A DNA stretch of 64,000 bases from Turnera subulata (lineage: Eukaryota; Streptophyta; Magnoliopsida; Malpighiales; Passifloraceae): the NCBI GenBank assembly GCA_028386065.3, contig JAKUCV010007296.1:3133-67132 (forward strand). The letters are read 5' to 3'. Under the pieces are notes generated by a model, which saw nothing but the letters and a program-made list of their open reading frames with translations, searched no databases and was not told the DNA's origin. This document shows, piece after piece, positions 1-54,915 of this stretch. Numbering within the stretch: position 1 is the first letter of the stretch; each line of letters starts with the position of its first letter. A program made the position numbers and the translations under genes.

Positions 1-3000
1 AAAAATGGTGAGAGTAAGACTTGAACCCTTGACCTCCTAACAATATTTAAAGCCATTAACCAACTAAACTATCACAAATTAGTGTTATCTTTACATACGT
101 TTTAGTATATATTGAGAATGACTTCAATTTTGACCATAAAATTATTTTAATGAATATATTTTGACTATTTTCTAAAAAAATTAATATAATTTAATAAAAC
201 GGTTGAACTCCGGTCGAACCCCGGTTGAACCCCGGTTTTCCTTGAACATCCCCCTCGCCGGTTCAATGGCCGGTCCGGTTTTCAAAACCTTGCTGTAAAC
301 TTTTAATGCACCGGAAAAATCAAATTGAACTTTTTATGCTTTTGTTTTCTTAAAACTTGGTTGGTCCCCGTGTAGTATTTGGACATGCATGCCACTGAGA
401 GTGACACTTGTACATCCCCAACTAACGAACCATCAAAAGTTAACGTTGATCAGGGCACATTTTTCTCCTTTCTCATGAACGTCACAATTAGCTCAAGTAC
501 CACCAAATTTCAATTGAGATGGTAAACGACAATAAACAAGAATCATATTTAAGTCATTTTTTAAGTTTATGAGAAGTAAAACAACCAACAACTAGCCTGT
601 AATTTTTTAAAATTAAACATTTTGTTTGTCCTTGTGGACTACCTACGCATCGCATATATATATATGTGGTCTTAATTTACGATCATAACATGTCATCCTT
701 AATTTAAGAACTAGCTAGTACATTATATTTATTTTCTCCATGTTAAAATCAACCCAGTGACTTTTGCAAGTGGCAGGTGAGTAAAGTTTTTCTTTGACCA
801 TTTGGTTAGTTAATGCTCTAGCTAGATAGGTGGGGTTATTGGTGGTGTGCCACTATTAGCGTTCATCATCTATAATTAAAGTTTTGGTGTCATACGGGTT
901 ATGATAGTGGTCATCTGCAGTTAAAATCATATGGGTTAACAATTTTCTTCCTTATAGTATCATTGTTGTCGTTGACGTTGGTTTAAGTTGTTAGTTATCC
1001 CTTTTTACAAGAGTTTGTGCGTTGTTAGTTAGGAATGGTAGATGATGAGAGGCAATCGCATGATGTGGAACAAAACCTAATAAAAAAAGCAGTATATTAA
1101 TTGATTTTCAGTTGGATGTACACTTTTTCCTTTATGTATCTCTTGTTACTCTTTTTTCTCCCCCGATTTAGGAAAAATTAGATGACAAGAGAAACCAAGA
1201 AAACTTATAAAGCAAGGAAAGCAAGAGCCAAGAGTTTGATTACTTTATTTGCAAGTCTTTATTAAGGTTTTCTTATGCAACAAGCCTTAGATCCCAATTT
1301 ACATGAAGTTAAATCAATGCTAAAAAAGGTAAAACCTAGGGAAGAGGATATGTTGACTGCTTTTAAGGGTGGAAATAAATAGTGCATAGACTGAAAATGA
1401 CCAAATAGGGGAGAATTACGAATAGACACAATATTTATATATGTGGGTTCCAGTCCTCCAGATAATCTCGTACATATATCAACTGCACAATATGAAAATG
1501 TGACAATATTGCGCAGGTTGATCAGGACCCATGTTCTGTAGATGGTAATTTGATGTTTTACATGACATGTCAACGTTACGATTTGAATAGTATTTAATCT
1601 TAGTATTTCATTAATTACTTTCAAAAAAAAAAGAAAAAAAAATCTCATTAAGATCATCTCCATTGATTTAATTTTTCACCAAAAAGCGCCAATTTAATCA
1701 AAACAAAGAAAAAACGATAAATCCCAGCAAAATTCTCTATCAACATCACCGTCGTCTTCATCACTCACGGTATCCAAAGCAGAAAGATTGAAAGGTTTCT
1801 ATCTAGAGCCATAATACACCAAACGCTAATTAATTAATATCAAAAGATATTCTTAACGCGGTATAAAATTAAAACCTTACGCATGCAATAACATGAAATA
1901 TTATGCTAAGGTGTATATTGATTAATTCTAACACGACACGCCAAATCCTGGGGGAGCTGCAGCCATTGATTGGGCCCATGCAAGAACAAACCCTTATGGG
2001 AAGACAATTCCTAGTGGATGCTTTCAGATTTTGAACGTGGAAAAAAAACTAATAAATGCAACAAGGTGTAGCTAGCTAGCTTGAGGAGATGATGCTGCAT
2101 GCATTTAAGACAGTTAGATGTTGAAGAGTGGATAAATTGGTGGTTTTGGAAGGCAGGTAAAGAACTACCTACACATGAACTATCTAGTACTGTCGACATT
2201 GCAACATTTGGAGTAGATAGGGATGGAATATATATGGGTAGCATAAAAAAAATAATTGGGGGACGGAATATATAAATGACAAAAGAATTTAAATGTATGT
2301 ATACTAGTTTGTCTGCTTCTGTGTAATTAATTCATACATGAATGGGTCGTTTAACGATAAGGTGGTTTACATTTCTGATCAAATCAAAATGGGAACTAGT
2401 TGTCTCTTCTTCGTAATTGAATTTGTCAAGAAATATGACTCTGTGTCTATCCCATGTACTGCAAGATGTTATATGCCCAAAAATGCAAAATTGAATGTCG
2501 GAATACATGCAACGCCAATAAAGGAATTCTCTAGCAACAAAATCTTATCATTATGTATCTCTATTATATATATATCTTGATTTTCAACTTATTCTTTTTT
2601 TTTTTTTTGAAAAAAAATCGAGATTTTCAACTTTGGAGCAAAGAATAGGTGAAAGCAATGTGTAACTGCCAGTCCATTGACTGAGGGAATAAGTAGGAAT
2701 CTCATTGCTTAATGCTGGTCCTCTTCTACTTTTTTTATTTTTTTTTCTAATCAGAGGATTAATTCATGGTTTTCTTGATTGGTTGTTGAGTTTAAACTTT
2801 ATGTGTATTTACATTTAATATCTGCATACAATATTCATCAATGACTAACTTAGAACTTCTAAACAACTATTAATGTCCAAAAAAAACAACTTATCAAGAG
2901 AAACTGAGAATTTCTCTAAATGGAGAAAGTTAACACATAAGATCACTTAAAAGGGCCCAAAAAATGTCTTGTACATTAAGAAATTAAATATGGATGACTG

Positions 3001-3140
3001 CATAGACACCAAAGAGAAGAGTTTTTTTTTTAAAAAAAAATCTAAATGGATTTAAATTCAAGGTAGTCTACTTGTATTATAACAGAATTTATTCAAACAT
3101 ACAAAATCCTTCAAATTCATGATCAGCTAAATACAAAAAC
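1..3140. other. Gene-poor AT-rich intergenic region
   Basis: No coding region is convincing here: the open frames are short, low-complexity and without family motifs. The first 300 bases have the look of decayed transposon sequence: a stretch around 10-75 resembles the tRNA-like B-box region of plant repeats on the opposite strand, and 204-240 repeats a short GC-rich motif (variants of gaaccccggttg). Long T and A runs at 2591-2618 and 3019-3040 and an alternating TA run near 655-664 are also present. Confidence 0.6.
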
Positions 3141-3150
3141 ATCCAAATAG

Positions 3151-3667
3151 GGCCCAGAAGCCTCTTCACTTTCTTCGCTTCAGGCTGCCGGCGGCAAGCC
3201 TTTTATGTTTCTTTTATTTGCTTTTCTTTTATCCTTTAATAAAGTGGTAGATCTCTGTTGCTTTTTAAACAACTTGTTTCTGTTTTTGTACAATTTTCCA
3301 GGAATGCTCCTCGTGATAAACCATGGACGTTACAACAATCTTTGTTATCACGTCGGTGTTGACGATCTCCTCGCTCAATTGCAGAATCTGCAGCTCTTTC
3401 CCTCTCGGGATCTGCTGTTCTTTCCCTCCCTGGTGGGAGGTTGCTCAAGGCTTGTTATGTTTCAGTTTACCTTTATTCCTTTGGATTTGTTTTCCTTAGG
3501 TACTATTACAAGCCTTTGTTTTAATCCTCATGTTGGAGGATATTTCTGTTCCATCTCTGTAATAGTCTTGGAGCTTATACACTTGACTTGTGTCAAGTTT
3601 TGTTGTATCTCTATGTACTATTTTCTGGTTTAATGGAACGGGTCTACCCGACTTTTATAAAAAAAAA
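3151..3667 (+). mobile_element. Small retro-insert, probably a 5'-truncated LINE 3' end
   Basis: The segment ends in an A run (about 3659-3668) and is bounded by the same 10-base word, atccaaatag, at 3141-3150 and 3668-3677. A 3' poly(A) plus a short target-site duplication is the signature of target-primed reverse transcription. The last 60 bases have the U-rich tail with a taatgg/taata-type motif common at plant LINE 3' ends. An open frame of 142 codons (3205-3633) is rich in Phe and Leu and looks non-coding. The duplication is short and could partly be chance because of the adjacent A run. Confidence 0.5.
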
Positions 3668-4154
3668 ATCCAAATAGATAACAATAAATGAATGTGATAA
3701 TGTTTTAAAAAACTAATACGTAAGGAAATATATATGTATCACTGCAGTGCACGCCACCAAAACGGCATTGCAGCAGGTTGCGTTCTTTTTGCTAGGTTTG
3801 ATAAAACGACAAAGAAGCTTCTTGACGACATGTCGTCTCAACTTCCATGTTAAAAAAAAAAGGGCTCCAAATCCAACTTCCAAAAACCTGCCCCCTCCCA
3901 ACTCCCAACAACCCCACTCCTAATCTAAGCGCCACACACAGCAGTTTAGTTCTTGTGGCTCCTAGTCCTTCACACGCACTCTCCTCCTCCTCCTCCCGAC
4001 TCAATTATTGAGGTAAAAAAAAAATAATCACATTTTAATTTAAACGACTATATTTGTGGCCTACTAAAAGGCAGAAGCTTCCCCTGAACAACCCACTTCT
4101 CAAAATTTGATCTTTTTTTTTTTTTTCTTTCTGGTCTTGTTTTAAGGTGTAGAC

Positions 4155-6122
4155 ATGGCTTTTACCGTCGCTAGCTTGCCTCCTCCTCCGCTTCTGGTTC
4201 ACGGTACAAAAACCCTCTTCGGGTCCCTTCCAAAGCCTGTGGTTTCGCCCAGTAGAGGTATTTTTGGTGGACCCACAAAGGGTTTCCTGTCTGGATGTTT
4301 GTCCACTTCTAAATTATTAAGCTTTTATGGTGGTTGTTTTTGTTTGCTTGAGTGCGCTATGACTTCTCATTGATGATAAAGGTGCTAGTATTTCTTTTCG
4401 TTGAACAGGGAACTTGTGGTGGGTTACCTTTTGTTGGAAATGGATGTTCTGGTTCTAACAAGTAATGGAATTGAGATAAGAGGTTTCGTAGTCAATGCCA
4501 TTGAGTTGGGTTTTGTGCTAATTTGCTAATGTTCTTCAAATTATTGTGATTCTCCGGAAAAGAAGTTTTGATGGATTGGAGTGATGCTTAGCGGAGAATC
4601 CATGATTGGGGAAATGTGAAATGCTTTTTTCAGGTTCTTGTTCCTTTTTCTACTTTGTGGGAGATTTTCACAATGGGATAGCAACCATTAATCAGTAACT
4701 TCATAGAGTGAAACTTGGAATAGATATTTACCTGAAGGTTCTTCCTGGAAGTGTGTCAAATTGTATTTCCCAACGGGTTATCTGAGCCATGTTAAAATAT
4801 CAGTATGGTTCTACTGTTTATGCGATCTTTTTAAGATAAAATGAAATTTACATGTGTAGAGAACTGTATATCTTTGGTTTTGAGTATGAGGGCATTGCAG
4901 ATTAGCACCAGTTGTTCTTTTTATCTTATTTTTTGGATTAGTGGCAACAGTATGCACTCTGTAGAATGTGATAGACCTCCACATTTTCCTTTGCGGATGC
5001 ATTGTCTTGATGAACTTGCATGCCAGGCACACAGAGCCGCTCTATTATCATAAGGTCTACTGGGGAAAGCTCTGGGTCATCAACCTCTCTTGATATTGTT
5101 AAGTCTGTTCAAGACATTGTGAGTGTCCTTCAGACTGGTTATTTTTATCTATTTGCAGCTTCATTGTTTTGATGTTCCTCCTTATATATGTAACATATGG
5201 AGCGACTCTTGTGGATTGTGTTCATTGGCAAGTGGCTACAAGGAAGCATGCATATCAGCATTCATTGATGCTTTACGAGATATTAAATTGTATCTTCACT
5301 GTCATGTGGGACGTATATGTTGTCTAACAAAAACTTGTGTGAAACAGTGGGATAGTTCTGAAGATCGATTAGCTCTTGTTGGTTTGGGCTTTGCTGCTAT
5401 TGCCGCTTTATGGACATCAGTAAATATCATAGCGGTAATTGGCACTACCCTGTCTTTTTGAATTCTATGAGAAGCAGTGTTTGGTTTAGGAAGACATTAA
5501 CTAGACCTTATGATACTTTTTTTTCCCCTCCAAATTGTTTGTGGCAAAATCTTATATGAACCACTTAGCAGAGCATTGTCCTAGTACTTCTTTGAGGAAG
5601 GAATTTCTCAAAGGGGCACACACTGTCTTAATTATCATTTCCCTGTCATTTCCTTCAATGAGATTTCTGACAGTTTTATGTGTTTTGACTAGGCTGTTGA
5701 CAGGTTACCAATTCTCCCGGGTGTGCTAGAACTTGTTGGGATCCTATATTCTTCGGTAAGCATGTACATTCACTTTGATCAGAATGCAAAAGGGGAATTT
5801 TTTTAGACAAAGGTAAAGTTTAGCTATTGTGGTAATAGTAACTCAAATTGTTCTATCCATTTCAGTGGTTCGTGTATCGGTATCTCTTATTCAAACCTGA
5901 CCGGTACGTGAGACTTAACTGACTCTTTGGTTTGATTGGCAAGTTATAAATTTTCACCATGCAAAATACCTCTCTTTCTGTTTATTCCTTTTGTTAAAGC
6001 TGGAGTCATTGGTTCTCCTCAGTCCGGAACAACATCTTTTTTTATGTGTATTACTTTTCACTTTCAGGGAAGAGTTATTTCAGATCATCAACAATTCAGT
6101 GTCAGAAGTCTTTGGTCGATGA
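4155..6122 (+). CDS. CURT1-like: CURVATURE THYLAKOID 1-like protein (CAAD domain), chloroplast
   Basis: Six exons: 4155-4257, 5027-5118, 5348-5434, 5693-5755, 5866-5903 and 6068-6122. All junctions are GT-AG, phases close, and the product has 145 residues. The N-terminus is rich in Ser, Pro and hydroxylated residues with few acids, as in a chloroplast transit peptide. The C-terminal 80 residues form a CAAD domain: a WDSSEDRLALVGLGF start, a first membrane helix (LGFAAIAALWTSVNII), a short loop, a second helix (LPGVLELVGILYSSWFVYRYLLF), then an amphipathic tail ending near SVSEVFGR. Known family role: CURT1 proteins oligomerise in thylakoid membranes and bend grana margins. The length and the simple tail fit the CURT1 group rather than a synthetase-fused CAAD protein; which member (A-D) it is cannot be fixed. 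The gene converges with the minus-strand CXC gene, their stop codons being about 0.9 kb apart. Confidence 0.9.
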
Positions 6123-7065
6123 ATTATGATTCTGAATGCCACCAAGATGTAAACTTCAAATATGAGAAATGTTCTTATGAACTATCCTATATTTGTATTT
6201 GTGACAGCAAACTTATCAAGCAAGTTGGGTACAGGAGTGAAAGCATTCTGTGTCCTTAGTTTGTTGTGATGGTTTTCTTGGTGGATAGGCAACCCTGTTG
6301 AACTTTTATTTCAGAATGTTATGCAAGTATTTTGATTTCTGGTTCTAGGGCACCTTACTTTTCTCAATACAAGCAGTTTCCTGGTGAATCAGCTTCTCTG
6401 CGGCGTTTATTGGTACCAGGCACTCACGTGATGAGAGTCTCTTCTCGAGTTCTCGTTCAGCGTTTTCGCTTTCCTGTCTCGGTATGCACTTGTAGGCTCG
6501 TTTTAAGAGACAAAATTTGGAGAATCAAAGCAAAGTTTGCAGGAAAGGAGAAAGAGAGATGCAATAAAGGCTTCGTTTACAATTTTCTGTGAGCAAAAAA
6601 AGACAAAAAGCGAGGATACATTTACAAAAGGAAAACATTATGTAAAGTCATTTAACTGCTGATAAGCTGCTTAACTCTTTACTTTGATCCTCACAAGAAA
6701 CCATTCATATCATCGTAACTATGATAATACTTGAACCAGTCGATTAAAGAACCTCTCCGACGGGTCCAAGGAGGGCTTCATAGACTAGTCAACACCGTTA
6801 AAGTGAAACTTCAACCTGATGCGTCTCCAGCGTTATCTCCAACCTGAATTTTTGGGCTGCCTAAAGTCAGATTTCAGAAACAGACTTTGTCAATTTCAAT
6901 ATGTTGATCTGGTAGCTGAAATTTTCATAGCGACTCAATCACAATTCAATCTGATAAAAAGCTTTCATCCTTTCCTCTTTTTTTTTTTTTTTTTTCTCCA
7001 CTTGGCAGTAAACATAGCAAGGCTCGAAGCTTACTTAACGCCCGACAGACAGCATCCTGATTTCT
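6123..7065. other. Convergent 3' flanks of the CURT1-like and CXC genes
   Basis: This gap separates the two stop codons and should hold both 3' untranslated regions. Open frames at 6332-6592 and 6819-7088 carry no recognisable motif and I treat them as non-coding. A T run at 6978-6996 lies on the CXC side. No RNA gene or repeat was recognised. Confidence 0.5.
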
Positions 7066-10000
7066 TCAGCTTTGGGGCTCGGTTTTAAGAAGCTTAATCC
7101 CGTTGGTTGAGCTGGGAAGCAGCAAAATCTTAACCGATTGTTTTTCTCCTCGAGCTGGCATACCTAGTTGATTATGTAGAGAGTTAAGACCAGCATATAA
7201 TTCTTCGACTACATAGTTCTTTATTATGATTGGTCTCCAAACTAGTGCATATGCCTAGTGCTAGGAATTATAGGCAGAGTATTACCTCTCATTGCTCCAA
7301 AGATGATGATCCTTTTAAGGATATCCCTTAAACGCATCAAAATAAGCCTTTCCTGTTCCATGTAGACATTCCCATTGCAGCTACGACTCTGATGGTGTTC
7401 AATTGAACCAGTTCCTGTGGAGGACGCGTCTCCTCTGGAGTACCTTAATCCATCTTTGGCATGATGAAGTCTTTCCTGCACATGAGTGACACCAGATCTG
7501 GAATCATCCATGCTTACTGTATCACATTGGTTTCCACCCAAATGATTTGGAAGAGCCACCTTTTGATCATGAGGTTCTTTCTCATGGCTTTTCCTTTCCT
7601 TCACCGCAAGAGCACTCGTGGTCTGGTTTTCTTTTGTTCCTTGAATCTCTCTTTTACCTTCCTCGTCCGAAAACAATGCAATATTAACAAGGGAAAAATC
7701 AGTTATGCACAATCTGCAACTCTGTATTACCTTTTGCAGCTTCTAAGACACAGAAAAGGATACTTGTTAGTAACGTTTTGCAGGGTTCCATGTGAGTTTT
7801 TGAAAAAGAAGAAAGCTCAACAGAGGCTTTCACAAAAAAAAAAACACACGACGCAGTTTTCAATTGCTACTGTAAAGTGTAAACATGAAAACCTCATCAA
7901 TTGGAAGCAAAAAAGAACTTAGAGCATCAATTGGAAAATTTCTGATGTACCGCTTCCACGCAATCACTAATTCACTATCGGTGAGATTAGCAAAATATGA
8001 AGGTGGAGGAACTCGTTTCAAGGCACGAGTGTGTGCATGTGTGCGTGAGAAAAGGACAAAGAGATTATGTGATCACTTTCGTGCTGTATATGTTTTGGAG
8101 TGTGAAATTGAGTGTGTAACTTCAAAATCTGGCAATAAAGAGGCCACGGTGTTATAGATTAAGGATTACATCCATACCGGCAAGAAACTTGGCAGCTTCT
8201 GACAGTAGCACCAAACCTGAGCAAAGCTCTCTCGAGTCCTGTGGATGGATAACACCTCCCAACAATGACCTTGTGCAATGATCAGACACATAATTGGTTA
8301 TGCAGCTTCCTGCACAGAATAATGTGAACTGGGAAACGCACAAAAGATATTACCGGATATACAAACCTGCATCCACCGTGAGAAACAGGAGCAATGCACA
8401 AAGCTGCAGATGGACCATGAACCCTAATCGACTTGACCTGTTAAGCAAAATGAACATCAAAGGATCCATGAGCCCTAATCGAGTTAACCTGGAAAGCAAA
8501 TTGAATATGAAGTTCTAGGTGGGCAGAAAGATAAAATCGCCAATAAGCCACAACAACTAGATAATGCACCACAGGAAAGAAGATCAAGCCCTAGTTTTTG
8601 GAATAGATTCCCAGTTTATTACTAACAATATAATAAAGGATATGGAGAATAACATACCTGTTGAAGTTCTGCAAGTATTTGAATTGCTATGCTTTCCTTG
8701 TTAGAATCAACGAATTGCTGAAATTTTCTCTTTCTGTTCTCTTCAGAGGAGCCGTAACATGAGGATACAATGCCAGTACTTGGAGCAACATTTTTCAGTT
8801 CAATACGGGCTTTGATTGTACCCTGGTTACCACAAGAAACAGCAACCTTCGGCTTGCATCGCTCCAAATTTCTGCAGTTTGTACATTTACAGTTTTCCGA
8901 GCAAAGAATGTTTGCTTGGAAGCACTCGCAGTACCCCTTGAGGCAACGGGTTCTTTTGCAATGGCATCCTTTATTGTGCTTTCCCACCAGTGGAACACCC
9001 ATTTCTTCATACTAAATTCGTTGCAAAGAATTACAGGTAAAGATTAGAATACAAGATCTCTGATGGCGAATTGATCGCTAGAGCAAAAATGAGATATTTG
9101 CTCAAATCAAACTACATAATTCACCTTAGTACTATAATTGCACATATTTAAAATATATGATCATAAATGCAATCGGAGCTCCTGATTGTGCTTTTCACTG
9201 AAATTCAACCTGATTAGCTAATGCACACTCAATAAGGTCGACAGGTTAAGAATCTGGAGTTATGACCAAGAATCTTCCGGTTACAACAGGAACATATGCA
9301 TGCTAACAGCATTAGAACACTTTCGTTTTATTTCTGAGAAGACAATTTTTTGACAAATTGAACTGAGTATGCAACTCGATATGGTCCAACGAAAAGGAAT
9401 AAAACCATAATCAAGAAAATAGCTGCTTCAAAGCTTTAAAGATGACTTTTACCCACCCCATCAACATCAGAATTGGATGGAGCCCTAACGATTTTTGGCT
9501 TGAAGGCATTTGGGTTGCGCTCTAGGATGCTTTCAGCAGCTTTTCTCCTTGCAGCCTCATTATCGACATTGTTATGGCAATCATCGCAGCTGCATCCATC
9601 ACAAAATGATCCAGAAGCAAAGCACGCACAGTACCTGTTAACAATCGTTTCTTACAAAGTTAGAAGCAGCAAATCCACTTAAACTTTTATTGTTCATACA
9701 CGTTATGTATCCATCAAGCACTCGGGGTATTTAAATTCCTTGGTCTTACTTAAATATACTTCTTTTAGTTACTCGTGAGTGTTAAAGTTCGTAGACGAAA
9801 CGAACGTTACTGTGACAAATGCTAGACAACCTCAGGATAACAAGTAAAGCTACGATCGGCAGTCAACGACACAAGAACTTCTACATCTGAACGACGTATT
9901 TGGTAAAAGTTCGTTTAAAGATCTCGATAATTTCAATTAAACACCACAACCGAAGTTAAAAGAAGCTCCAAGAAACCAGCACAGGAAACGAAGGCCAATT

Positions 10001-10503
10001 GCTCAAATCATCCATTAATTAAGCAATTGATAACCTAGCTAGAATTAATAGAGTCTAGCTAAAGCCTAACTTCTGATCACAAACACCGAAAGCAACTAAA
10101 TCTAGGATCAATCGAGTCGTATCAAATTAACAGATGAACTTTAATAACTGCAACGAGAGAGGAGAACTCACGCAAGCCTAGGCAGAGTAGACGGAGGCGA
10201 GACCAATCGCTTCGGTGGCAGTGGCGGCGGCGGCGGCGAGGTGGTGGAGGCCACCGGCGTCAACCCGAACTTGGTGAAAATAAGCCTTCGAGGCCTGGAA
10301 CCTGATTTCTCTCTCTCTGTCATAGTAACTGCATTCCTCTCAACTGTTTCTGGCGGGAGATGTGATGTCATCGTAACTGCAACTGTCGCGCGATATAACC
10401 GTTTTTGGCGGCAAATTTCATCGTCGTCTCGATCCACGTAGGCTTGACAAATCACGGAGAAACAGAAAATCAAACACACGAAAATTAATCGCAGCAAAGT
10501 CAA
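7066..10503 (-). CDS. TCX-like: CXC-domain protein, tesmin/TSO1-like (CPP family)
   Basis: Exons in transcript order: 10503-10172, [9892-9782, see below], 9634-9457, 9011-8658, 8437-8367, 8305-8178, 7742-7731 (12 nt), 7657-7286, 7208-7066. With the bracketed exon the product is 566 residues; an internal Met at 10371 could be the real start. The second CXC repeat is complete ([19 protein letters not shown], then [10 protein letters not shown]). The first has only its second half in the printed strand ([19 protein letters not shown]); its first half lies in a block that must be complemented without reversal. Between the repeats is the typical linker ending [11 protein letters not shown]. The C-terminal part has the family blocks [14 protein letters not shown] and [13 protein letters not shown]. 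Known role: zinc-binding CXC repeats bind TTYAA-type promoter DNA, and plant members act in DREAM-like cell-cycle complexes. The last exon (7208-7066) is chosen by phase and is less certain. Confidence 0.85.
8367..8510 (-). repeat. Tandem duplication across a CXC-gene splice acceptor
   Basis: A unit of about 50 bases is repeated at about 8411-8459 and 8460-8510 (shared words such as ccctaatcga and agcaaa). It contains the 3' splice site and the first codons of the fifth exon. The upstream copy also has an AG acceptor (exon-like start at 8488) but reads into a TAA stop, so the downstream copy (start 8437) is the usable one. Confidence 0.65.
9776..9898. other. Complement-without-reversal block holding the missing CXC exon
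   Basis: Reading the printed plus strand backwards from 9900 to 9776 (that is, complementing the plus strand and then taking the minus-strand message) gives an acceptor (tttatgcag), an open exon from 9892 to 9782, and a consensus donor (gtgagt). The exon is 111 nt, enters in phase 2 and leaves in phase 2, exactly as exon 1 (ends GC) and the next exon (starts G TAC TGT) require. It encodes RKQCHCKQSRCLKL, the canonical first half of CXC repeat 1. The ordinary reverse complement of this block encodes nothing. The true block limits lie somewhere in the flanking introns and cannot be read from the sequence. Confidence 0.88.
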
Positions 10504-12917
10504 CGAAATGCGATATGCTATTAAGTACAGCTAATACACTTGAAATGAAGCTCTGTTTGGTGGCAGAGAAAGTGCATGACCGGGAAAGAAAGTGAAAAAG
10601 TTAATGATCAAATGCAATCGCCTCCTGGTAAGTATCAGCTTCCAGAAACGCATTACGCGAAGAACTGAATCTGATCTGAGAATGAGATTCCAGTGTGAAA
10701 TCGCGAGAATTCTAATCTACATCTCTCTTCGTTGCGAGCTTTTTCTTTTTCTTTTTCTCGGGAAACAAACAGAAAATGCAAACGCTCGAATCTGATGGTA
10801 ATAGAATCAGTTACAGTAAAGCAAAGGAAGAGACTCACAGTAGCGCCATGGGATTCTGTTGCGCTCTATACGATGGAGAGGGAGGAAAGTGAAGAGAGAA
10901 ATGTGGAGAAGAAAGTCGGTTATAGTAGAAGAGCGGGATTTTGGAAAGGGCGTGTTGGTGCGAATTTCTATTTAAATAGACTAAGAACGAAGAGGGACTT
11001 CGATACGTCGCCGTATAGTCTGGAGATGAACCCTTTTTTTTTTTTCTTTTTGAATAGAAGATTATCTAATTAAGTTCATAAAAAGATTGGGGGTATACTG
11101 AGTTTTACCGGATAGAATGGGGGAAATTAAGTAAGAGAAGGTAAAACTCTATCCCTTGCTTGCTCTCAGCCAGTTAATTGACATTTTTTTTACAGACAGT
11201 TAAATAACTATAAGAAGATAAAGCCCGCATTAGGCATTAGATCTGTGATCCATCCCTTACTCGTTGCCAGGGTAATTCTTTGATGCAAACAATGGGTTAC
11301 GAACTTAATCCTTCTTTTCCTTATATGGTGTGTTCTAATTCCATCTTCTTTTCCGTGTTGGGCTAATTATGATAAGCCTGTTGTTCTAGCGAAGTAGCAA
11401 ATCAAATTTGAGTAATATGATTATGAATTTAGGACGGTTCATATTCTTGTGGTTTGTTTCATGTGAATCGACTAATACAAAGCTTCCTAGAAAAAAAATT
11501 AAAAGCTTGCTAACAATTTTTAAGATACGGGTTCTATTCTTGTGCTTTCAGTTAAGCCCCATTTATGTGATGTGACTAAATATGGCAATTCAGAGCGTAT
11601 GTGGTAGGATGGGATCATTGAGTTAGAAATTGATCCCCGATTTTTGACACTTGGTGTTAATTAATATCTCATTGAGGTTCTAGTGAGTAGTCTCTCCTAC
11701 GAGAATAATCTAATGCCATGCAATCGATCATGATTCTATTGACCAGATGATGACTGATGCCCCTTAAAAATAACAAAATAAATAAATAAGTACTTCATCC
11801 ACATATTATATTGAAAACAACATGGAAGCTTAGAATGCTTACCTGATTTTTCCTTTAATCACCTTTCCTTCAATGTAAATGGTAATGGTCCCATCATGTT
11901 CTTCGTGTCAAGTGATTAAGCACCGCCTACTAATAAGAACCTTTATTTTTTTCTTCGAAAATAAGAACCTTTAATTAGTTGCCTCCCATATGGCATTAAA
12001 ATATACCTTATTTGAATTAAGCTTGTGATATTAAATTTTGTGTGAAGTATATTAGACATGAATGAATTTTAAGACACATTTTATCAATGATTTTTATTTA
12101 TCTTATATGTTACTAAGAAAAAGCTAAAAATTTCTTGGCCTATATATTACTGGTATCTGAATTCAATTAATGTCAAACTACAAGAATATGATTATTTTGG
12201 ACGATAAATTCATTTTGCACCCACATCCAAACAGGTCGATGAAGTTTAATCGCACACTAGGAGTGACGTTATTAATTTATTATTATCACCATTTACAATC
12301 TTCAGAGTAGGTGATTCTACGTTAATAAGAAGGTTATTAGTATTTGATAAAAAAAAAAAGAAGGTTACTTATTTGCCTTAGTAAATCATTCTTTTTATTT
12401 TTGCTCGCGATCCTAAAATAAACATTGCAAAATGAAGGATCATAAAGAACAAAAGCTCAAGTGAAAGGGAAAAAATAAAAAAAAGATACATACCATCTCG
12501 AATCCAGTTCACCTGGTAAAGTAAACCACCACCATAACATAGAGGGAGAACACAAACCCACTACGTGATTTGATTTTGACGACACAAGCGAAATCCGATT
12601 AACCCAATCGGATTCCAAACAAGGTCTAATACTTTGCCTTCTTCCCTAATTACACTAATTCCTTTGCCCAATTCTCTCGTTTCTTTTTGTCTTTCACATT
12701 GCAGATTGGCATTTTTTTTCATCTAATTTTCTACTAGTCATGAGTCCAGTTCTTATGCAATTTCGATTTGGAAAATCGCATTTTCAGTTTGTTGGGATTT
12801 TGGATCGTAGACTTTATTGCTCTCTATTTTGGCTTTAATTGAATGCAGGGTTTGATTTGATGCGGTACCGGATCGACCTCTTCTTTTAGTTTTGTGGGTT
12901 GTGGTGAGTTCAAAGAG
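10504..12917. other. Divergent promoter region between the CXC and golgin genes
   Basis: The 2.4 kb between the two start codons should hold both promoters. Toward the golgin gene, sequence before 12918 ends in a likely leader-intron acceptor (aatgcag at about 12843-12849), so the 5' leader is probably split. Open frames at 10592-11073 are short, partly overlapping on both strands and without motifs. The stretch 11100-12400 is AT-rich and I see nothing coding in it. Confidence 0.45.
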
Positions 12918-15900
12918 ATGGCGTGGTTCAGCGGGAAAGTCTCGTTAGGGAACTTCCCGGATCTAGCTGGGGCTGTGAATAAGCTCAGCGAGAGCGTTAA
13001 GAATATCGAGAAGAATTTCGATACTGCTCTCGGGTTTGAAGAGAAGCCCGAGTCCAGCAGCAGTGAAGGTGATCTTCATTCTTTCTTTTTTTTTGTTTCT
13101 AGTGTTTTGTCGAAATTTTGTTAATGAAAGATTACTACTTTTAAAGTGACTCTTCCTGATTGCTTGGATTAAGTTGTTTTGTTAATTTTCAAGTCATTTG
13201 CAGTAAGCTTATGTCTTCTAGAATGTAGACAACCTTGACTTTTGTGAATCTGAGATTGCTTTTGCTTACCATTTCCCTTCACTTGGATGGCAGCTTCAGG
13301 ATTATGGCCTGTTATGTCCTTTATGGGTCAGAAAAGTGACGACAGTGGCTCAGATTCTTCGGGGAAAAGTGGGTCTCCAGAGAGGTTATCCACTGCCGAG
13401 GAAGACAAGAAGCAAGATTCTGCTGCAGAAAAAAAGAAAGTCGTCAAGGAAAGTGAAGCAGTTAATGAAGAGCACGACAAAGATCATGACAAAGAAATTT
13501 CAGGTATTAAAGAGAAGAAAGATGATGCGACTTCAGTCCATCCTGATGCCAATGTTGAACCTGAGTCGGAATCAGAGAAAGTGCCTATTGAACCTCCTGA
13601 AAACATTGCTCAGGAGATCAAGACCGTCGATTCAGTGGAAATTGTACAACAAAAAGAGTTGTCTGAAGGTCAGACAGCCGAAAATTTGGAGTCGGTGGAG
13701 TTCACTTCTGGAACCATCATGGCGGATCACGTAGATGACAGTAAACCTGTGAATGATGAATCCCATAATGTGGTTGATGTGCAAGAGAGCTCAGATGAAA
13801 AGAAAGAACAAACTGGAGAGACTGTAGAAGAAACTTCTCCCTTGCAAATTGAATTGTCAACTGATTCCCAGGCGGAGGCATCGGGAGATAACCTAGCTGA
13901 GGCATCAAGTGATACCCAACCTGAGGAGTCAACTGATTCCCAAGCCAAGGCATTGAGTGATACTGGAGCTGAAGCTGCCACTGATGCATCTGGTTTACAG
14001 CCCGTCAGTGCAAAAGAGGCTGAGATAACTCCTGAATCTTCTTCCTCCCTTGTTCTTCCCCCAAATGATACTTCTGATGCAGTTTCTGAATCAAGTTCTC
14101 ATGACAATGACACGGATGTAAAGGTTCTTGGAGAGGACAGGCAAGTAACTGATGGTGACATGGACACTCAAGAACTACGCCTGAGCTCAGCATCTAATAA
14201 ATCGGACTCTATAGATTATGCTGTTGAGTTAGAGAAGGTGAAGAAGGAGATGAAAATGATGGAAACTGCGTTGCAAGGTGCTGCTAGGCAAGCTCAGGTA
14301 AAATTGAGTGGTTTATTATGGTTTGTAACATTGAATACTACATGGGTACCACTATTACGTAGTTCAGCATCATTTTTGCAGTGAACCAACAAAACATTCC
14401 TGTGGTTATACAGTGTTATTCTTTTCTCTTTTCCCTAGCTCGTCTTTAACTTACTTTCCAGTTGAAAGAGGGTCTTTTCCTGATTGCGTATTACTCTTTT
14501 TTTCCTTTTTCATGTCATTTGACGTTCAGAATTGTTTGGTTCTTTTCCAGTTTTCATGCTTTGTGATAATTCAGTATTTAGTTTGCAAAATTGAATGTTC
14601 TGAAGTCTGTTCTTCTCCTGTTTTCATGTCCCCCTTGAATGTGGAGATATTCATATTCTCGGATTTCTCCAATTCAGTTTCCAGAGTATTTAGAAATTGA
14701 CTCCTGATATTCTTCCAGGCAAAAGCTGATGAGATTGCGAAACTGATGAATGACAACGAACAGCTGAAATCTGTGATCGAGGATTTGAAGGTATGTTATC
14801 TTACTTTTCTCCCACCGTCTTCATTATTTTGGACTAGGCATATTATGTGTTGTGCTACTGATTTGCTAATTTTGATGTTTCAGTTGAATTATTATCTGGC
14901 TTGCTGTGATAGTATTCCTTTATGCTTTCTGTTTCTCGAGCTGGAATAATGTTGCATTCTAATAGCTGAATGTTATGGACAGAGAAAATCCAGTGATGCA
15001 GAAGTTGAGTCTTTGAGAGAGGAATACCATCAAAAGCTTGCAACTCTTGAAAGGAAGGTGTGCTTTTGCAAATTTGCTCTTCACTTTTTCTTTCTCACTT
15101 TGATGTGATTCTAAATATTTGAGCTTTTTGAGCATGCTCCTTTTATTTTTTGCGACCAACTCAAGTGCCTGACTAGATGATACTAATTATATAACGTTTG
15201 ATCCAAATAGGTTATATTGACCTCATGTTCTGGACTTCAATTAGTCAGCTATTTTGTATAACCCAGGGAGACTGTTCAAGACTGTTCAAGTCTCTTACCT
15301 TGTCCAATAACAGAAGCTTTTAAAGGAATTCTTTTTCTTCATTAGGAGGAACTTTCATTTAAACTTGCGTGACTGCTGGATGAAAGAAAATTTTTTTAAT
15401 AGCAAAGAAAAGATACCAAAATTGGAGGCCATGGTATCTTTCTTCATCTGCAGAATAGCGCTAACTGGAAAAAGTTTGTTTATCTGCTCAACTTGGAACT
15501 CCTTTAAATGCTTTTGAACAATGCAATATAGTTAGTGTATAGGGATGACCATTGGAACTGGAAATATGGAGGAGCTGTTACGCATTTTATCATAAAAGTA
15601 TGCAAACAGATTGATGTTCCATCCCTATTTTATTGAATCTTGGAGTGTAGTTATGATGATGTGGGTTTGCTTGCTTTTTTGATAGGCCAAGGCTTAAGTT
15701 CTGTCATACTCTTGCGTAGACCACTGCGTAACTCTACACAATGCTTTTCTTTTTGCATTTGCTATTGTTTAGTGAGCTCTTTGCTCCTTGGGTTACAGGT
15801 TTATGCTTTGACAAAGGAAAGGGATACACTCAGGAGAGAGCAGAATAAAAGGAGTGATGCAGCTGCTCTTTTGAAAGAAAAAGATGAAATCATTAGTCAG

Positions 15901-18900
15901 GTTATGGCTGAAGGTATTGCTGTGTTCCCATGTCGAACAAACTTAAAGGCATTCTGTTTCTCTTTCACGGGGGAAAGAATTACCATATGTTATCCTTGTC
16001 TACCTTGTCATTTCTCGCTGAAGCCACTTGTTTTATCAAATTTACATGTTGCAAAGTTTTGGCCTTCCAGGAGAAGAGCTTTCGAAAAAGCAAGCTGCTC
16101 AGGAAGCTACAATGAGAAAATTAAGAGCTCAGGTATCAAAATTGGCTGGTGGATTATCTTATTCTTCAATGTGTGATCACCTTCCTGGTTTTTCTTTGCT
16201 TTCTTTGCATGATCACATTTCTGGTACTTTACTAATCTGATGTATGTTATGCCTGTGTGCCTCAATTTATGGAAGCTTAGATTAGAGAGCTTGAAGAAGA
16301 GAAGAAAGGGTTGATGACAAAACTTCAGGTAATTTGTTTTGTGTTCCTCAATTTATGCCTGTTTGCTTAAATTGGCCTCTGCTGAGATTGTTGTTATTTC
16401 ATGTCCTTGTCTAAAATCATCTGTTGTTGGTCAGTTGGAAAGTTAGAAAGTCTTGGGCAACCTGTACAGAAGTAAATTCTTTCTTGCTGATATTGGAAGT
16501 TACTTGTGCATCAGCCCCTTTCTACTTGTAATAATGGCATCATTTATTGCACCTGTAGGTGGAAGAGAATAAAGTAGAAAGTATTAAGAGGGACAAGGCA
16601 GCCACTGAGAAGTTGCTTCAGGAAACAATAGAAAAGCACCAAACCGAGCTTTCAGCACAGAAAGAGTTTTACTCAAATGCTCTGAATGCTGCAAAAGAGG
16701 CTGAAGCATTAGCAGAGGCACGTGCAAATACTGAAGCTAGAACCGAATTAGAAAGCCGCCTAAGAGAGGCTGAGGAGCGTGAAACTATGCTAGTTCAGGC
16801 ACTTGAAGAATTAAGGCAAACTTTGAGTCGCAAGGAGCAGCAGGTCTTTAGTTATTACCATTTTATAATTTTTCTGTTCACTTCCAATATTCTGACCATG
16901 AAGTTATCTTCATTGATTTTGGGGTTGTGCAGGCTGTTTTTAGAGAAGATATGCTTCGCAGGGATATTGAAGATCTTCAAAAACGTTATCAAGTGAGCTG
17001 ATCTTTCTCTCTTTGTGCATTGTGCACATCTTTTTCTTTTAATTTCTGTATTTCTTGATTTACCCGTGGTATTTATCTTTGCAGGCAAGTGAGCGCCGAT
17101 GTGAGGAGCTGGTCACTCAAGTGCCTGACTCAACAAGACCTCTTCTAAGACAGATTGAAGCTATGCAGGTGACTTATAATTTCATACTTCTCCACTTTTT
17201 CTAGATTGATTTACTTGACATTATCATTGATATTAAAGATGGAAATTGGCTTAATTGGTTATAGGAAACAACAGCCAGAAGGGCTGAAGCATGGGCTGCT
17301 GTCGAAAGATCTCTTAACTCTAGACTCCAGGTACCAGTACTCTTCTATTTGTATGGAACATTTGCATAACTCATTGAAGTACTCATTTGCCAATTTTTTG
17401 CTCTCGCAGGAAGCAGAAACCAAAGCTGCTGCTGCTGAGGAAAGAGAGCGGTCTGTGAATGAACGCTTGAGAGTTTGGAATAGGTCTTAATTACACGAAC
17501 TTCGAGTCCAAGAACTAGAAGGGTATATTGTAAACAACCATGACATCGAAAAACTACTTATAAGTGACTTTGGTCAGTACACAAAGTCTAAAGAACAAAT
17601 TCTCGACTTGTCTGTGTCAATTCATCCAGGGAACTCTTCCTTTCTGTCTCTCGCCGACTTTTATCCGTAGAATATCTTGCAGCCAAGGAGGAAGCCGATA
17701 CTCAAGAAGGGCGTGTAAACCAGCTTGAAGAGGAAATAAAGGAACTTAGACAGAAACACAAACAAGAGTTACAAGAAGCATTAATGCACAGGGAACTCTT
17801 ACAACAGGTCCTAGTTCTAGTTTCATCTCTAATTCAATATGCTGAACTTGATATATCTGATTGGATGAACTGACAAAAAGGAGAGATATGTCCTGAACAT
17901 GTTTTGTGGTAGCATTATTGCATTACGTCCATCAAATATATATATTACAGACTTAACCAAAATAATTATACCAAGAAACCTAGATGCTCCTAAGGTGTTG
18001 TTATGTTTATATCTGGACATAGATACCAAGCAAAATGATGTCTTTCGGTGCAACATGAACATCGAGCCAATTATTTTCTTAATGTGCCACAATAATGGCA
18101 GGGCAAAATGATACTTAGTGTTATGCTTCGTAGTAGTGTATGAATTGTTGCATAGGCTTTTATGCTACTGCATGCAGTCAGCTGTCATGCTGAACACTTG
18201 ACAAATTTTGGTGGCCGTTGGGGATAGTGAAACGGAATAAGATCTTGTGGAAATGTTTGATATTTGCTATTGCTTGAATCTTGGAGTATCCGGTTGGAAT
18301 AGAAACTGCTCTCTACTCTGTCATTTGCACTTGCTGTGTGATCTCATGGACAAGGTCAATACACACTGATTTAAGCTCTTGATTTGTTACAGGAAATTGA
18401 CAGAGAGAAAGCTGCTCGATTGGATTTGGAAAGGAAAGCTCGTGTTAATTCCACATCTACTTCTGATCGAACTCCCATGACGAGGAACGTTTCTTCTCTG
18501 GAGAATGGTAATATGTTTGCAATTGATGTCACTTTGCTATTTTATTGCCCCGTCTACAGTTTTTGACATCTTCAGTTGTTTCAGGGAACTTGCCCAGAAA
18601 GCTTTCAAGTGCTAGTAGCCTCAGCAGCTTGGAGGAGAGCTATTTCCTGCAGGCATCTTTAGACGCTTCTGATAGTTCGTCTGAAAGGAGAAATCATGGA
18701 GAAATAACCATGAGCCCCTACTATTTGAAGAGCATGACACCAAGTGCGTTTGAAGCTGCTCTGCGTCAGAAAGAGGGAGAACTTGCTTCCTACATGTCTC
18801 GTTTGGTATGTTATCTGCAAACCCTTTTATCTTGAAATATCTTCTGGTGTCTTTTTGCTAAGTTGTGTTGTGAATGGTGGACCAAGAGTTCTGGAGACCT

Positions 18901-19594
18901 ATGCTATGCATCTGTCTGCCCTATTTTATTTTCTGTACAGCCTCTGAATAGCTCTGACCAGTAATTTACTTTCATATGCTTCAGGCATCTATGGAGTCCA
19001 TCCGTGACTCTCTTGCAGAGGAGTTGGTCAAAATGACAGCACAGGTCAGTTTGTGCAAATGATTTTTTGGTGACTTGCCAGTAGTTTGGTAATTTCAATA
19101 CTTGAATGTTTTCTTGTTTTCTCCAGGACGTTTAATGAATGTTTCTATTGCTGCAGTGTGAAAAATTGCAAGCTGAATCTGCTTTGTTGCCCGGCGTACG
19201 GGCTGAGCTAGACGCATTAAGACGGAGACACTCCGCTGCGCTGGAGTTAATGGGTGAACGTGATGAAGAGGTACATTAATCATCGAGTTTGCTTCCCATG
19301 CTTATTGACTCAACAATATATGCTTTTTTCTTTTCTACCAAATCAAATTTGCTTTTTTTTTTTTATCATATTCTGACATTTGGAAGTGGGTTTACAGTTG
19401 GAGGAACTTCGAGCTGATATTGTTGACTTGAAGGAAATGTACAGGGAGCAAGTAAACCTACTTGTGAATAAGGTACTTTCTAACATCTATCCCTCTTGTA
19501 CTTTATGTATGAATTTGTATTGTGCTAGTTTTTAAAGGGGCTTTGCATTTGGTGACAGATCCAAATAATGAGTTCAACGATGGGCACAGCGTGA
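12918..19594 (+). CDS. GC5: Golgin of the TMF type (golgin candidate 5-like)
   Basis: Exons: 12918-13068, 13294-14297, 14719-14790, 14983-15057, 15799-15913, 16071-16132, 16281-16328, 16559-16843, 16933-16992, 17085-17168, 17265-17330, 17410-17508*, 17589*-17807, 18393-18507, 18585-18805, 18985-19044, 19157-19270, 19398-19472, 19559-19594. Starred edges lie in a complemented block. The product is 986 residues with all phases closed. The N-terminus MAWFSGKVSLGNFPDLAGAV matches plant TMF/GC5. An acidic Ser-rich segment (about residues 70-350, with loose repeats around DSQAEAS) is followed by long coiled coils rich in Glu, Lys, Arg and Leu. The C-terminal block (SYFLQASLD, MSPYYLKSMTPSAFEAAL, ELMGERDEELEELRADI) is the conserved TMF domain, which in animals binds Rab6. 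Expected role: tethering at the Golgi. As printed, the frame stops at 17488-17490; this reflects the block, not gene decay. Confidence 0.9.
17470..17669. other. Complement-without-reversal block inside the golgin gene
   Basis: Bases from 17470-17472 to 17668-17669 make sense only when each is swapped for its complement in place. They then read SQTLSRINVLEAQ to 17508, a GT donor at 17509, an 80-nt AT-rich intron ending tgtttcag at 17588, then ISCLRAEQTQ and LSRSLEKERQRAAENR up to 17666, joining in frame to the normal EYLAAKEEAD. This is the sequence plant GC5 proteins have here. Edges are uncertain by 1-2 bases because either Ser codon (AGT or TCT) fits at the left and Gln or His at the right; the outer limits give exactly 200 bases. 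Confidence 0.93.
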
Positions 19595-29041: not shown

Positions 29042-30292
29042 TCCTTCTTTCTGTGTTTGCTTTTGTACTCAGCTTGGGAGTTTAGCTGAGTGAAAATGTT
29101 TGTGGGTTAGTCCTGCGTGTATAAAGTTCTGTTAAGCTGTTTACTTGGTCATGAGAAAAACAGTTTGATTTGAACGTGATTTGCTATTGTAATCAGTGTT
29201 CCAGTGTGTGATCCTGCTTATTAGCATTCTTAGTGTGATGTGTATGGTTGATTTGACATGATTGAGAATAAAACTTCCTCCCTTGGCTGCTACCTTTTGG
29301 TTATTGTTGTTGTTAATTTTAAGAGTGTTTGCTGTAAGTTGACCAATTAAGAGGCTATAAATCATCGAGTAGCATGCCAGCGACAGCACTGGCAATACGA
29401 ATCAGGAGCTACTAATGGAAGCTTATTAGATGCTTGAACCGGTATAAATCAGACTGGCAGAGACCAAAGAGCAATATTGGAACTGAAAACTTGTTAAGAC
29501 AAGTGTAGGGTCCCCCGGTAATTGATCTTCAGTTATTGGCAGAGCCTGAAACCTGAGACTCTCGGATCACTCAAAGTGACCTTAGAATTGGAGCTAGAAT
29601 AAGACATGACAAGTCCTGCGGAAGAAAATACAGTATATCGAAGACTATTAATACATGTCTCCCTTGGGAATTGAGATTACACAAGATATGGAGAGACTGA
29701 ATGGAGCTTTTTGTTTTTATCCTGAGATAATAGAGAAGACTTATCAAATAAATAAAACCGATCGTAAATAAGAGGAGCTTCACTTGTAAAATCTCGCAAT
29801 GAAGCCTTTCTTTTTTTACCGATGAGAAATGAAGCCTTAACTCATTTTAGACATAACCTTTTATATTTGAAATAAGCCCAATCTTTTTGTTTATTAAATA
29901 TCTGTGTCGGAATATGCTTTTTCCTTCCAGAAGATGCAGAGATAAAAGAAAAAGAAAAGAGGGGTAATGTATTTAAGGAAACAGAAAATAGTGTTAGGTT
30001 TCCCAACAGGTTAAAACGCTCCAAAACCGTACTCCCTAGCTAACAGTTTAGATAGCAAAGCGCCTACCTAACAGTTTTAAAAGAGTCATTCTCCAGTTTA
30101 GAACTCTTGACTCTCTAACTCTAACCAGTAAGTAACCATTTACCACAGACAAAATTGCATCTTCCAGTGATCATCGCAGCAAAGTAATAGTATACTAATA
30201 ACCAAACGCAGTTTTGACCTGTCAGTGGCCATACCACAGAAATAGATACGTATAAAACCTGAAAACTGTGTTCCTTATTTACATTCACCTAA
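29042..30292. other. CcmH 3' flank and AAE13 promoter
   Basis: AT-rich sequence with no ORF carrying a recognisable motif. Short minus-strand frames (29141-29395, 29571-29783, 29842-30024) are low-complexity and rejected. The last few hundred bases should hold the AAE13 promoter. Confidence 0.4.
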
Positions 30293-41908: not shown

Positions 41909-43700
41909 TTAGGCATAGAAGTGGGATGGAAGTCGCGGCTTGATAAGTACTTCAAATGGCTTTGCTTTCACATTGGTTAATCCAACGCCCTCAGTCATAT
42001 CAATTGGTTCACTTGATGGCCTGTCAAATTCAAGTCCCTGTATAAACGTAGCCAAGGTCATTTGCAGCTCTTGAAGGGTAAAATAGATTCCTGGGCAAAT
42101 TCTTCTACCACCACCAAATGGTATGTACTTGAAATTTGGGCCCCTAATGTCCATATCTTTGTCAGTAGTAAGAAACCTTTCTGGTCGGAACTCATCAGGA
42201 TTGGGCCACACACTTGGGTCTCTATGAATCTTCCAAATATTGATGAAAAGTCTAGTGCCTTTAGGTACATGGTAGCCACCTAGAGTGCAATCTTCCATGG
42301 CCAGGTGTGGCACAGCTAATGGGCCGCCAGGGTATAGACTTTGTACTTCCTTTATGACGGCCTTGAGGTACACCAAATCATCAAAATCTGATTCTTGGAC
42401 CAACCTTTCTTTACCAACTACAGTGTCTAGCTCAAGTTGGATCTTCTTTAGGACTCTAGGGTTGTTGAGTATTGCAGCAAGAGCCCAAACCATAGTGACG
42501 GCTGTGGTATCCGAGGCCGCCAAGATAAGACCCTGCATCATTAGCTAAAATGTTAAACATCTAAGCCCAAAAGAACTTCAAAGAAAAAAAGTTAAGTGCA
42601 TCAAATTTTTTTTCCTCCTAGACGCATAATATGGTAATACTATATATTGATCTAGTACTTTTGGCCCAACAAAAAAAAAAATTGGTACTTTTGGTAGACA
42701 GTGCTCAAGAATTTGGTACCGGGCCGAATGCTTTGATTAATGTATCAGAATCTCCATCTACATCTACTCGTCCTTCCTCAAAAAGTTTGAGCAATACATC
42801 TATCAAATCATTTTCTCCCTTCCCAGCTCCTGAATTCAATCTTTTCTGCTTATGCTCCGCTAACCATTCTTCAGCAACAGCGTCCATTTCTTTTTGAACC
42901 TTTCTCATGGCCTTCTCTTGTCCCCCAAGATCCAAGAATCTCAAGAATGGCAGCACATCAGACCACACCAACTTCCCAAAGCATTCCATAAACTCCCTCA
43001 GCCCTTCTTTCAGTCCATTCGCATCATCTCCAGTGGGACCATATCCTATGGTTTTTCCAACGACAGTCCTTAACAATACATTCACGCTCAAATCTGAAAA
43101 CCAACCTCTCATTTCTACCTTCACTCTCTTGTTGTCCGAATCACTGTTGTTGTTGTACCATATTTTGTACAGCTCTTTCATTGATGTCCTTATCTCATCA
43201 TCTCTTGCATCTCTCATGGCATCGACTCTAAGGTTTGAGAGAAGCTCAGCTGACATCACCTTACGCAGTTGACGCCACAGGTTGCCGTATTGGGCAAAGG
43301 CAACATTTGCACCACCATATGTCAAAATCTCAGCGGCAAGACTTTGTGGACGATTAGCCAAAGCTCTGTCGTTGGTGGTAAGGCACTCTTTGACCATTTC
43401 CCAGTTGTTTACGACCAAAGTAGGGTGCACCCCTAGTTTGATAGTGAAGACTGGCCCGTATTTGTCTGCCATATCGCCGAATACTCTGTGGGTTGGCTTC
43501 GATCCTAGCATATGAATATGACCTATCAGAGGCAACCCGCCTCGCACTTTTGGTGCCATCTTTTTGTTGCTTGCTTTTGTGAGGGTGTTGCGTGATATTC
43601 TCAACAGGAAATAGACAACAACTACAAAGGCAAAGGTAGTAGCTATGGTAGATACGGCAGGTGGTGGTATGATTGCTGCTAGTGAAGGAAGAGAAGCCAT
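41909..43700 (-). CDS. Cytochrome P450, CYP82-like, with a changed ExxR motif
   Basis: Two exons, 43700-42720 and 42532-41909, joined in phase 0; 534 residues. An N-terminal membrane anchor (IATTFAFVVVVYFLL) is followed by GGLPLIGHIHMLG, the oxygen-binding helix segment AASDTTAVT, FRPERF, and the haem motif PFGGGRRICPG with its Cys. Overall pattern and length suit the CYP82 family. The K-helix ExxR motif reads E-V-Q-S: the nearly invariant Arg is Ser (KEVQSLYPGGPL). The frame is otherwise open. Such a change usually disturbs haem pocket folding, so the enzyme may be inactive. A TATA-like box lies at 43786-43793 on the minus strand, about 86 bases before the start. The gene is opposite in strand to the thioesterases around it. 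Confidence 0.88.
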
Positions 43701-46930: not shown

Positions 46931-47860
46931 ATATGTAATAACAATGAGGGAAAGTATGGAGGTGTTTTTCGTTAGTTCTTGAATGAATCCATCCATACTG
47001 ATGTACTTTTATTTTCTTGTTGCCAAAGAAACAAAAAGAAAAAATGTGTGACCAGAAAGAACGTTATATGTGATGCTTGGAAAGTAAGTGATTGTGTTGT
47101 TGCCCATTTTCTTTGGCATTTTCTTTCCAATTCAATTATTCCATACACGACCGATGCTTAATTTTATCTATTATTGTGTTAATTAGTTCATATTCAGACA
47201 ACAAAGAGCATAAGACAGAAAAGATGAGACAGTCTGACAAGAAATAAAGATGAGACAGTAAAAAATAGAGAGATCTACAAAGAGATAAAACTTAAAAAGG
47301 TTAAGATGATGATGATACATATAGACAGGCACACAGGTACAGGCTACGAGCCCACGACGGAAAGAGTTTGGTTTTGGGCCATAAGTTTTGAGCCCAATAA
47401 GAGGGGACTTGGATCCGATACTCAGTCTTTCTTGTTTTTTAAGAGTACCAATGCACCAGTACAAGCCCATTCACCCTTGTTTTCTTTTATTTTGCTTTTT
47501 TTTTTTTTCATTTTCCCACTTTATATTGGGTCATTACATTGGTTCGCAACCATTTAAACCGAATATCTTTAAATACTTTTCTGTGGAGATACCAAAAATG
47601 CTTGATCTTCTCAAATTTCCATCTACCTCTCTAATATGCAACATTTTTTTTTTCAATGAATTTTTTTTTTAAACAATGTGAAGAAATGCTGTTTAATGTT
47701 TATGCAGAATATTTACACATAAATATTTAATTGTTGTTAATTTGGACGGGAGAATATTTAATTGTCTGGAAATACAGAGGTCACAAAGTGTGCCTGTCAA
47801 ATTGAGCATCTACGGAGACACCTCACCTGCCTTTTTTTGGGGCACGGTTCAACTTTCAAT
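46931..47860. other. Intergenic between relic 2 and the TIR element
   Basis: The open frames (46979-47161, 47306-47672 and the minus frame 47183-47470) have no motif and I do not call them genes. The final 60 bases match the flank that precedes other thioesterase units (ggcacggttcaactttca). Confidence 0.4.
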
Positions 47861-54888: not shown

Positions 54889-54915
54889 AGAAATGAGGTT
54901 TTGGGTAGGTGACCG

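Follow-up and report, generated by a model that had tools for sequence, protein, structure and literature searches.

Three 199–200-base blocks in a Turnera subulata contig match an allelic contig reversed without complementing and are most likely an assembly error

A block of about 200 bases that interrupts a golgin gene in the analysed window (64,000 bases, G000:C6597:3133-67132; positions below are those of the window unless a contig is named) is very probably no biological feature but an assembly error. It is one of at least three stretches of contig C6597, each 199–200 bases long, whose letters are a string reversal, uncomplemented, of an allelic contig in the opposite orientation, C4731. 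The three are called blocks 1, 2, and 3 here, block 1 being the one in the golgin gene, and their coordinates are collected in Table 1 with those of the affected genes. The assembly as a whole holds 518,689,335 bases in 7,125 contigs.

Table 1. Coordinates of the blocks, the genes that they touch, and the stretches compared with contig C4731
Feature	Position	Strand	Remarks
Block 1	17469..17668		In-place complement equals string reversal of C4731:1-200; 17469 ambiguous, 199 or 200 bases
Block 2	9721..9920		In-place complement equals string reversal of C4731:7753-7952; 200 bases
Block 3	6619..6818		In-place complement equals string reversal of C4731:9898-10097; 6619 ambiguous, 199 or 200 bases
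Golgin candidate 5 coding region	12918..19594	+	From ATG 12918 to stop 19592-19594; hand-placed in 19 pieces; uninterrupted outside block 1
Golgin candidate 5 exon 12	17410..17508	+	From splice sites and homologues; last 39 bases inside block 1; normal on C4731
80-base intron	17509..17588	+	Entirely within block 1; GT-AG only once complemented
Golgin candidate 5 exon 13	17589..17807	+	From splice sites and homologues; first 80 bases inside block 1
Tesmin/TSO1-like CXC gene exon 2	9782..9892	-	Wholly within block 2; hand reading; same exon on C4731
Stretch allelic to C4731:1-15895	293..17668	-	C4731 lacks two parts of it, about 3151-3662 and 6881-7834
Stretch near-identical to C4731	7835..9969		1 difference, about 26 expected from the flank rate of 12.5 per kb (own arithmetic)

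The interrupted gene encodes golgin candidate 5, which from its name we take to be a Golgi coiled-coil protein. Its membership of the TMF family is seen in full-length similarity outside block 1, where it is 88.5% identical over 566 columns to the closest relatives listed (poplar and beech). As printed, the frame is open through exon 12 to 17469 and then runs into a TAA at 17488-17490, the stop named in the original prediction. When every base of 17470-17668 is complemented in place, the missing end of exon 12 appears, followed by a GT-AG intron and the first part of exon 13; the sequence reads SQTLSRINVLEAQ / GT (17509) ... AG (17587-17588) / ISCLRAEQTQLSRSLEKERQRAAENR and joins both flanks in frame. 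The claim that such a complement restores 13 residues of exon 12, the intron, and the start of exon 13 was thus borne out, and the restored residues fit the homologues.

In the search for these homologues, block 1 was replaced by X, which kept it from swaying their choice. The search gave 925 matches, and the best 120 listed were 76–83% identical, with PF12325 and PF12329 given as their domains. The complement reading (with 17669 complemented as well) agreed with each of 118 homologues at 36–39 of 40 residues, whereas the printed reading agreed at 0–1 of 40, as expected if the complement is the true golgin sequence; the other two of the 120 were left out, their segments not being 40 residues long. 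In an alignment of 156 homologues, the complement reading matched the most frequent residue at 39 of 40 positions, the odd one being the last. Against 36 distinct homologue segments, the top local score in any frame was 130 for the complement, compared with 25, 24, and 29 for the printed block, its reverse complement, and its plain reversal, respectively. Two sets of controls, both scored against 15 of the 36 segments only, reached maxima of 33 (200 shuffles) and 36 (315 complemented 200-base blocks from elsewhere in the window). The reverse complement, which had been predicted to restore nothing, therefore scored within the range of shuffled sequence.

The last of the 40 residues helps to fix the right edge of block 1. 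Left uncomplemented, base 17669 completes the codon CAA for Gln, and complemented it gives His; at this codon, 155 of the 156 homologues carry Gln, one carries Leu, and none carries His, which places the edge at 17668 rather than 17669. Contig C4731 starts at the base that corresponds to this same 17668. On the left, 17469 matches the allele neither way (printed G, complement C, allele A), and the first base of block 3 (6619) likewise differs from the allele either way, so the length of both blocks is 199 or 200. The original prediction of exactly 200 bases at 17470-17669 was about right in size and shifted by one base; block 1 covers 17470-17668 (199) or 17469-17668 (200).

A query of 501 bases across block 1 matched C6597 itself at 100%, and the block thus stands in the window's own assembly. 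The same query matched C4731:201-369 on the reverse strand, at 100% to window 17300-17468 and stopping at the block; genome-wide it gave no further matches, and to the right of block 1 (up to 17800) no second copy was shown. C4731 (43,028 bases) is allelic to the window from 17668 down to 293, and its comparison with the in-place complement of C6597 returned, at E values of 1e-12 or better, exactly three matches, all at 100%: C4731:1-199 with 17668-17470, 7753-7952 with 9920-9721, and 9898-10096 with 6818-6620. Base by base, blocks 1, 2, and 3 agreed with C4731 at 0, 0, and 0 of 200 positions as printed, compared with 199, 200, and 199 of 200 after complementing in place. Since C4731 runs the opposite way, the letters of the blocks are those of C4731 in reverse order and uncomplemented (199, 200, and 199 of 200, respectively). 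The comparison of alleles covers this one contig and 17.4 kb of the window.

On contig C4731, the CXC exon, golgin exon 12, and the beginning of exon 13 all read normally; for exon 13 this covers the first 80 bases, at which the contig ends. As would be looked for in an assembly artefact, the normal sequence stands on another contig of the same assembly, and the anomaly recurs with a technical signature, namely three blocks of 199–200 bases within about 11 kb (6619-17668). At the other end, the allelic match stops at window 293; window 13-289 and C4731:15885-16227 both had raised scores for the complement in k-mer scans and did not match each other. The part of C6597 directly before the window (G000:C6597:1-3132) is all N, either a gap in the assembly or withheld sequence.

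Block 2 strikes a second gene, a Tesmin/TSO1-like CXC gene, whose exons 1 and 3 were joined in phase by exon 2, in a reading by hand, only after complementing. With exon 2, the Pfam TCR score was 46.2 bits and the match to the LIN54 structure 5fd3 had an E value of 1.1e-23, compared with 27.3 bits and 6.5e-15 without it; the latter value means that exon 3 alone carries much of the structural match. Block 3 lies outside any assignable exon.

Outside the blocks, C6597 and C4731 differed at 81 of 6,326 bases (293-6618) and 94 of 7,548 bases (9921-17468), i.e., at about 12.5 differences per kb. Within blocks 1, 2, and 3 there were, after complementing, 1, 0, and 1 differences, both at the first base. 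Difference-free runs of 439 and 337 bases extend up to the first base of block 1 and of block 3, respectively, and given this low local rate, near-identity to C4731 is by itself no proof that these two blocks were copied from it. Block 2 lies in the near-identical stretch of Table 1, where no differences were found from 8155 to 9969, and ends 49 bases before that run does; the run may hint at a switch of haplotype, and plain homozygosity could also produce it. Block 3 is approximately 60 bases from a stretch of approximately 950 bases (6881-7834) that is absent from C4731, and no block adjoins the second absent stretch, of about 510 bases (3151-3662). By eye, the 950-base stretch includes 3' exons of the CXC gene, and a single N stands beside the site (C4731:9839). 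Among repeats near the three blocks, we found just pairs of 12–14 bases of the kind expected by chance, none common to all three. Overall, the firm positional tie is that of block 1 to a contig end, and those of blocks 2 and 3 are suggestive.

The window was also scanned for further blocks by k-mer composition, independently of homology. In the first version of the scan (four word lengths, 1,277 windows ranked), the window holding block 1 ranked 9th, 13th, 8th, and 11th, i.e., unusual and not the most unusual. In a segment scan, block 2 scored highest (14.0), followed by block 1 (8.26) and the next segment (7.6), while block 3 appeared as a weak 103-base segment (5.96). The maxima of 12 simulated sequences were 5.5–8.1, against which block 1 by itself is barely exceptional. 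Implanted 200-base blocks reached 7.7 in only 54% of 1,965 trials, and more blocks may therefore have escaped the scan. The other high segments of the window include 13-289 and 29943-30145. A further one, 47811-48093, is likely a false positive, with 77 bases that match 49086-49162 as printed, and so are two high-scoring thioesterase-like gene copies (60 and 62 kb), which align to their sister copies as printed. When 20 other stretches were put through a k-mer scan, which was noisy, several segments equalled block 2 in score and one exceeded it (16.3). A genome search with C4731:15000-20000 gave no long partner except C6597 itself, and one with contig C5100 gave mainly repeat matches together with one allelic match of 475 bases. 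The latter is a second likely allelic pair (C5100:5001-5475 with C4949:30260-30734; 98% over 475 bases) and ends at a repeat.

The thioesterase-like copies, tentatively so named, belong to a tandem family of six three-exon copies at 36600-63500. Their first exons lie at 36.6, 39.1, 57.5, 59.1, 60.3, and 62.5 kb; fragments occur near 41, 46, and 50 kb, and the copy at 62.5 kb has a stop in exon 1. The minus strand of the same region carries a cytochrome P450 gene in two open pieces (41912-43700) and a LINE (50806-56961) with an uninterrupted ORF2 of 1361 residues (endonuclease, reverse transcriptase, RNase H-like) and an open frame of 681 residues upstream of it. The matches listed for the LINE protein are 29–47% identical, and the element may be a recent insertion.

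Taken together, the findings make an error in the data, not biology, the most likely source of block 1. DNA is antiparallel, and we know of no route by which it would yield a complement in place, whereas a missing complement step in software yields one. Where heterozygous genomes are assembled, contig ends and the joins between haplotypes are prone to damage. A step that joins contigs, fills gaps, or merges haplotypes could have taken a 200-base piece of the opposite-strand contig and applied 'reverse' where 'reverse complement' was needed, which would leave a complement in place along C6597. A joining or haplotype-merging step is the best explanation because the blocks are of one length, the partner runs in the opposite orientation, and block 1 lies at a contig end. 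The original prediction had left three origins side by side, namely data corruption, an assembly bug, and a planted edit; the presence of block 1 in the window's own assembly, the normal allelic contig, the three blocks of 199–200 bases, and the contig end favour the bug.

A deliberate alteration of the window as a test would account for a transformation with no known natural mechanism and for the round size of 200. We nevertheless consider it very improbable: the letters of block 1 are present in the source assembly (G000:C6597), those of blocks 2 and 3 having been seen in the window, and an editor would have had to plant three blocks (at 6.6, 9.7, and 17.5 kb), one of them ending exactly where another contig begins. 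Least probable is an ordinary inversion or a diverged, non-functional allele. It would fit a reading frame lost locally, but is refuted by the agreement at 199 of 200 bases after complementing in place against 0 of 200 as printed, and the scores of the reverse complement and the plain reversal (24 and 29) stay below the shuffle maximum of 33, obtained with 15 of the 36 segments, compared with 130 for the complement.

The natural process closest in form is 'swinger' DNA, in which, following Seligmann's proposal for GenBank sequences, a state of the polymerase in the cell would have swapped A<->T + C<->G over 200 bases. The rule is the same, the switches are sharp, and PMC4942731 refers to nuclear and mitochondrial claims of this kind, states that A<->T + C<->G is the one rule yet seen in swinger DNA, and, as a citing paper, gives the 16S rDNA in the Kamimuria wangi mitogenome as an example. 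The blocks do form contiguous stretches that follow the exchange rule with sharp switches (199, 200, and 199 of 200). Against this, data processing would explain them, given the length of 199–200 bases repeated in three blocks, the contig end at one of them, and the normal sequence that the assembly carries on a second contig, so we regard an origin in the cell as extremely improbable. The same slight probability attaches to the more specific idea that the blocks arose in the cell as genuine swinger insertions of the A<->T + C<->G type, at exchange points between homologous chromosomes. In a prokaryote contig collection, which does not bear on plants, a pattern for in-place-complemented 16S rRNA, run without a positive control, found 0 stretches.

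An assembly error of this kind has practical consequences. Two of the three blocks found in one 64-kb window break coding genes, and gene predictors are expected to return truncated proteins there. The golgin gene is presumably intact in the plant itself. The blocks leave length, G+C content, and gap count unchanged and would hence be easy to miss. The case also offers, for the swinger DNA claims in print, a concrete technical origin that can be tested. A<->T + C<->G is the rule expected from a missing complement or reversal step, and if many published records of swinger DNA were the same reversal without complementing, this would explain why only one of 23 rules is seen in DNA.

Compared with known systems, the blocks share with swinger DNA a contiguous in-place complement within otherwise normal sequence. 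They differ in the length of 199–200 bases occurring three times, in the one block at a contig end, and in the normal allelic contig within the same assembly, whereas the published reading of swinger DNA is a state of the polymerase in the cell. For one sequence of swinger form, a technical origin is suggested here; the case is no test of the published ones. Among the papers listed by literature searches, none was evidently about 200-base pieces of fixed size being reversed and left uncomplemented. The other likeness is to errors of haplotype merging and gap filling, which likewise fall near contig ends and between haplotypes; their usual kinds are duplications, collapses, and misjoins, whereas the error here is a reversal without the complement.
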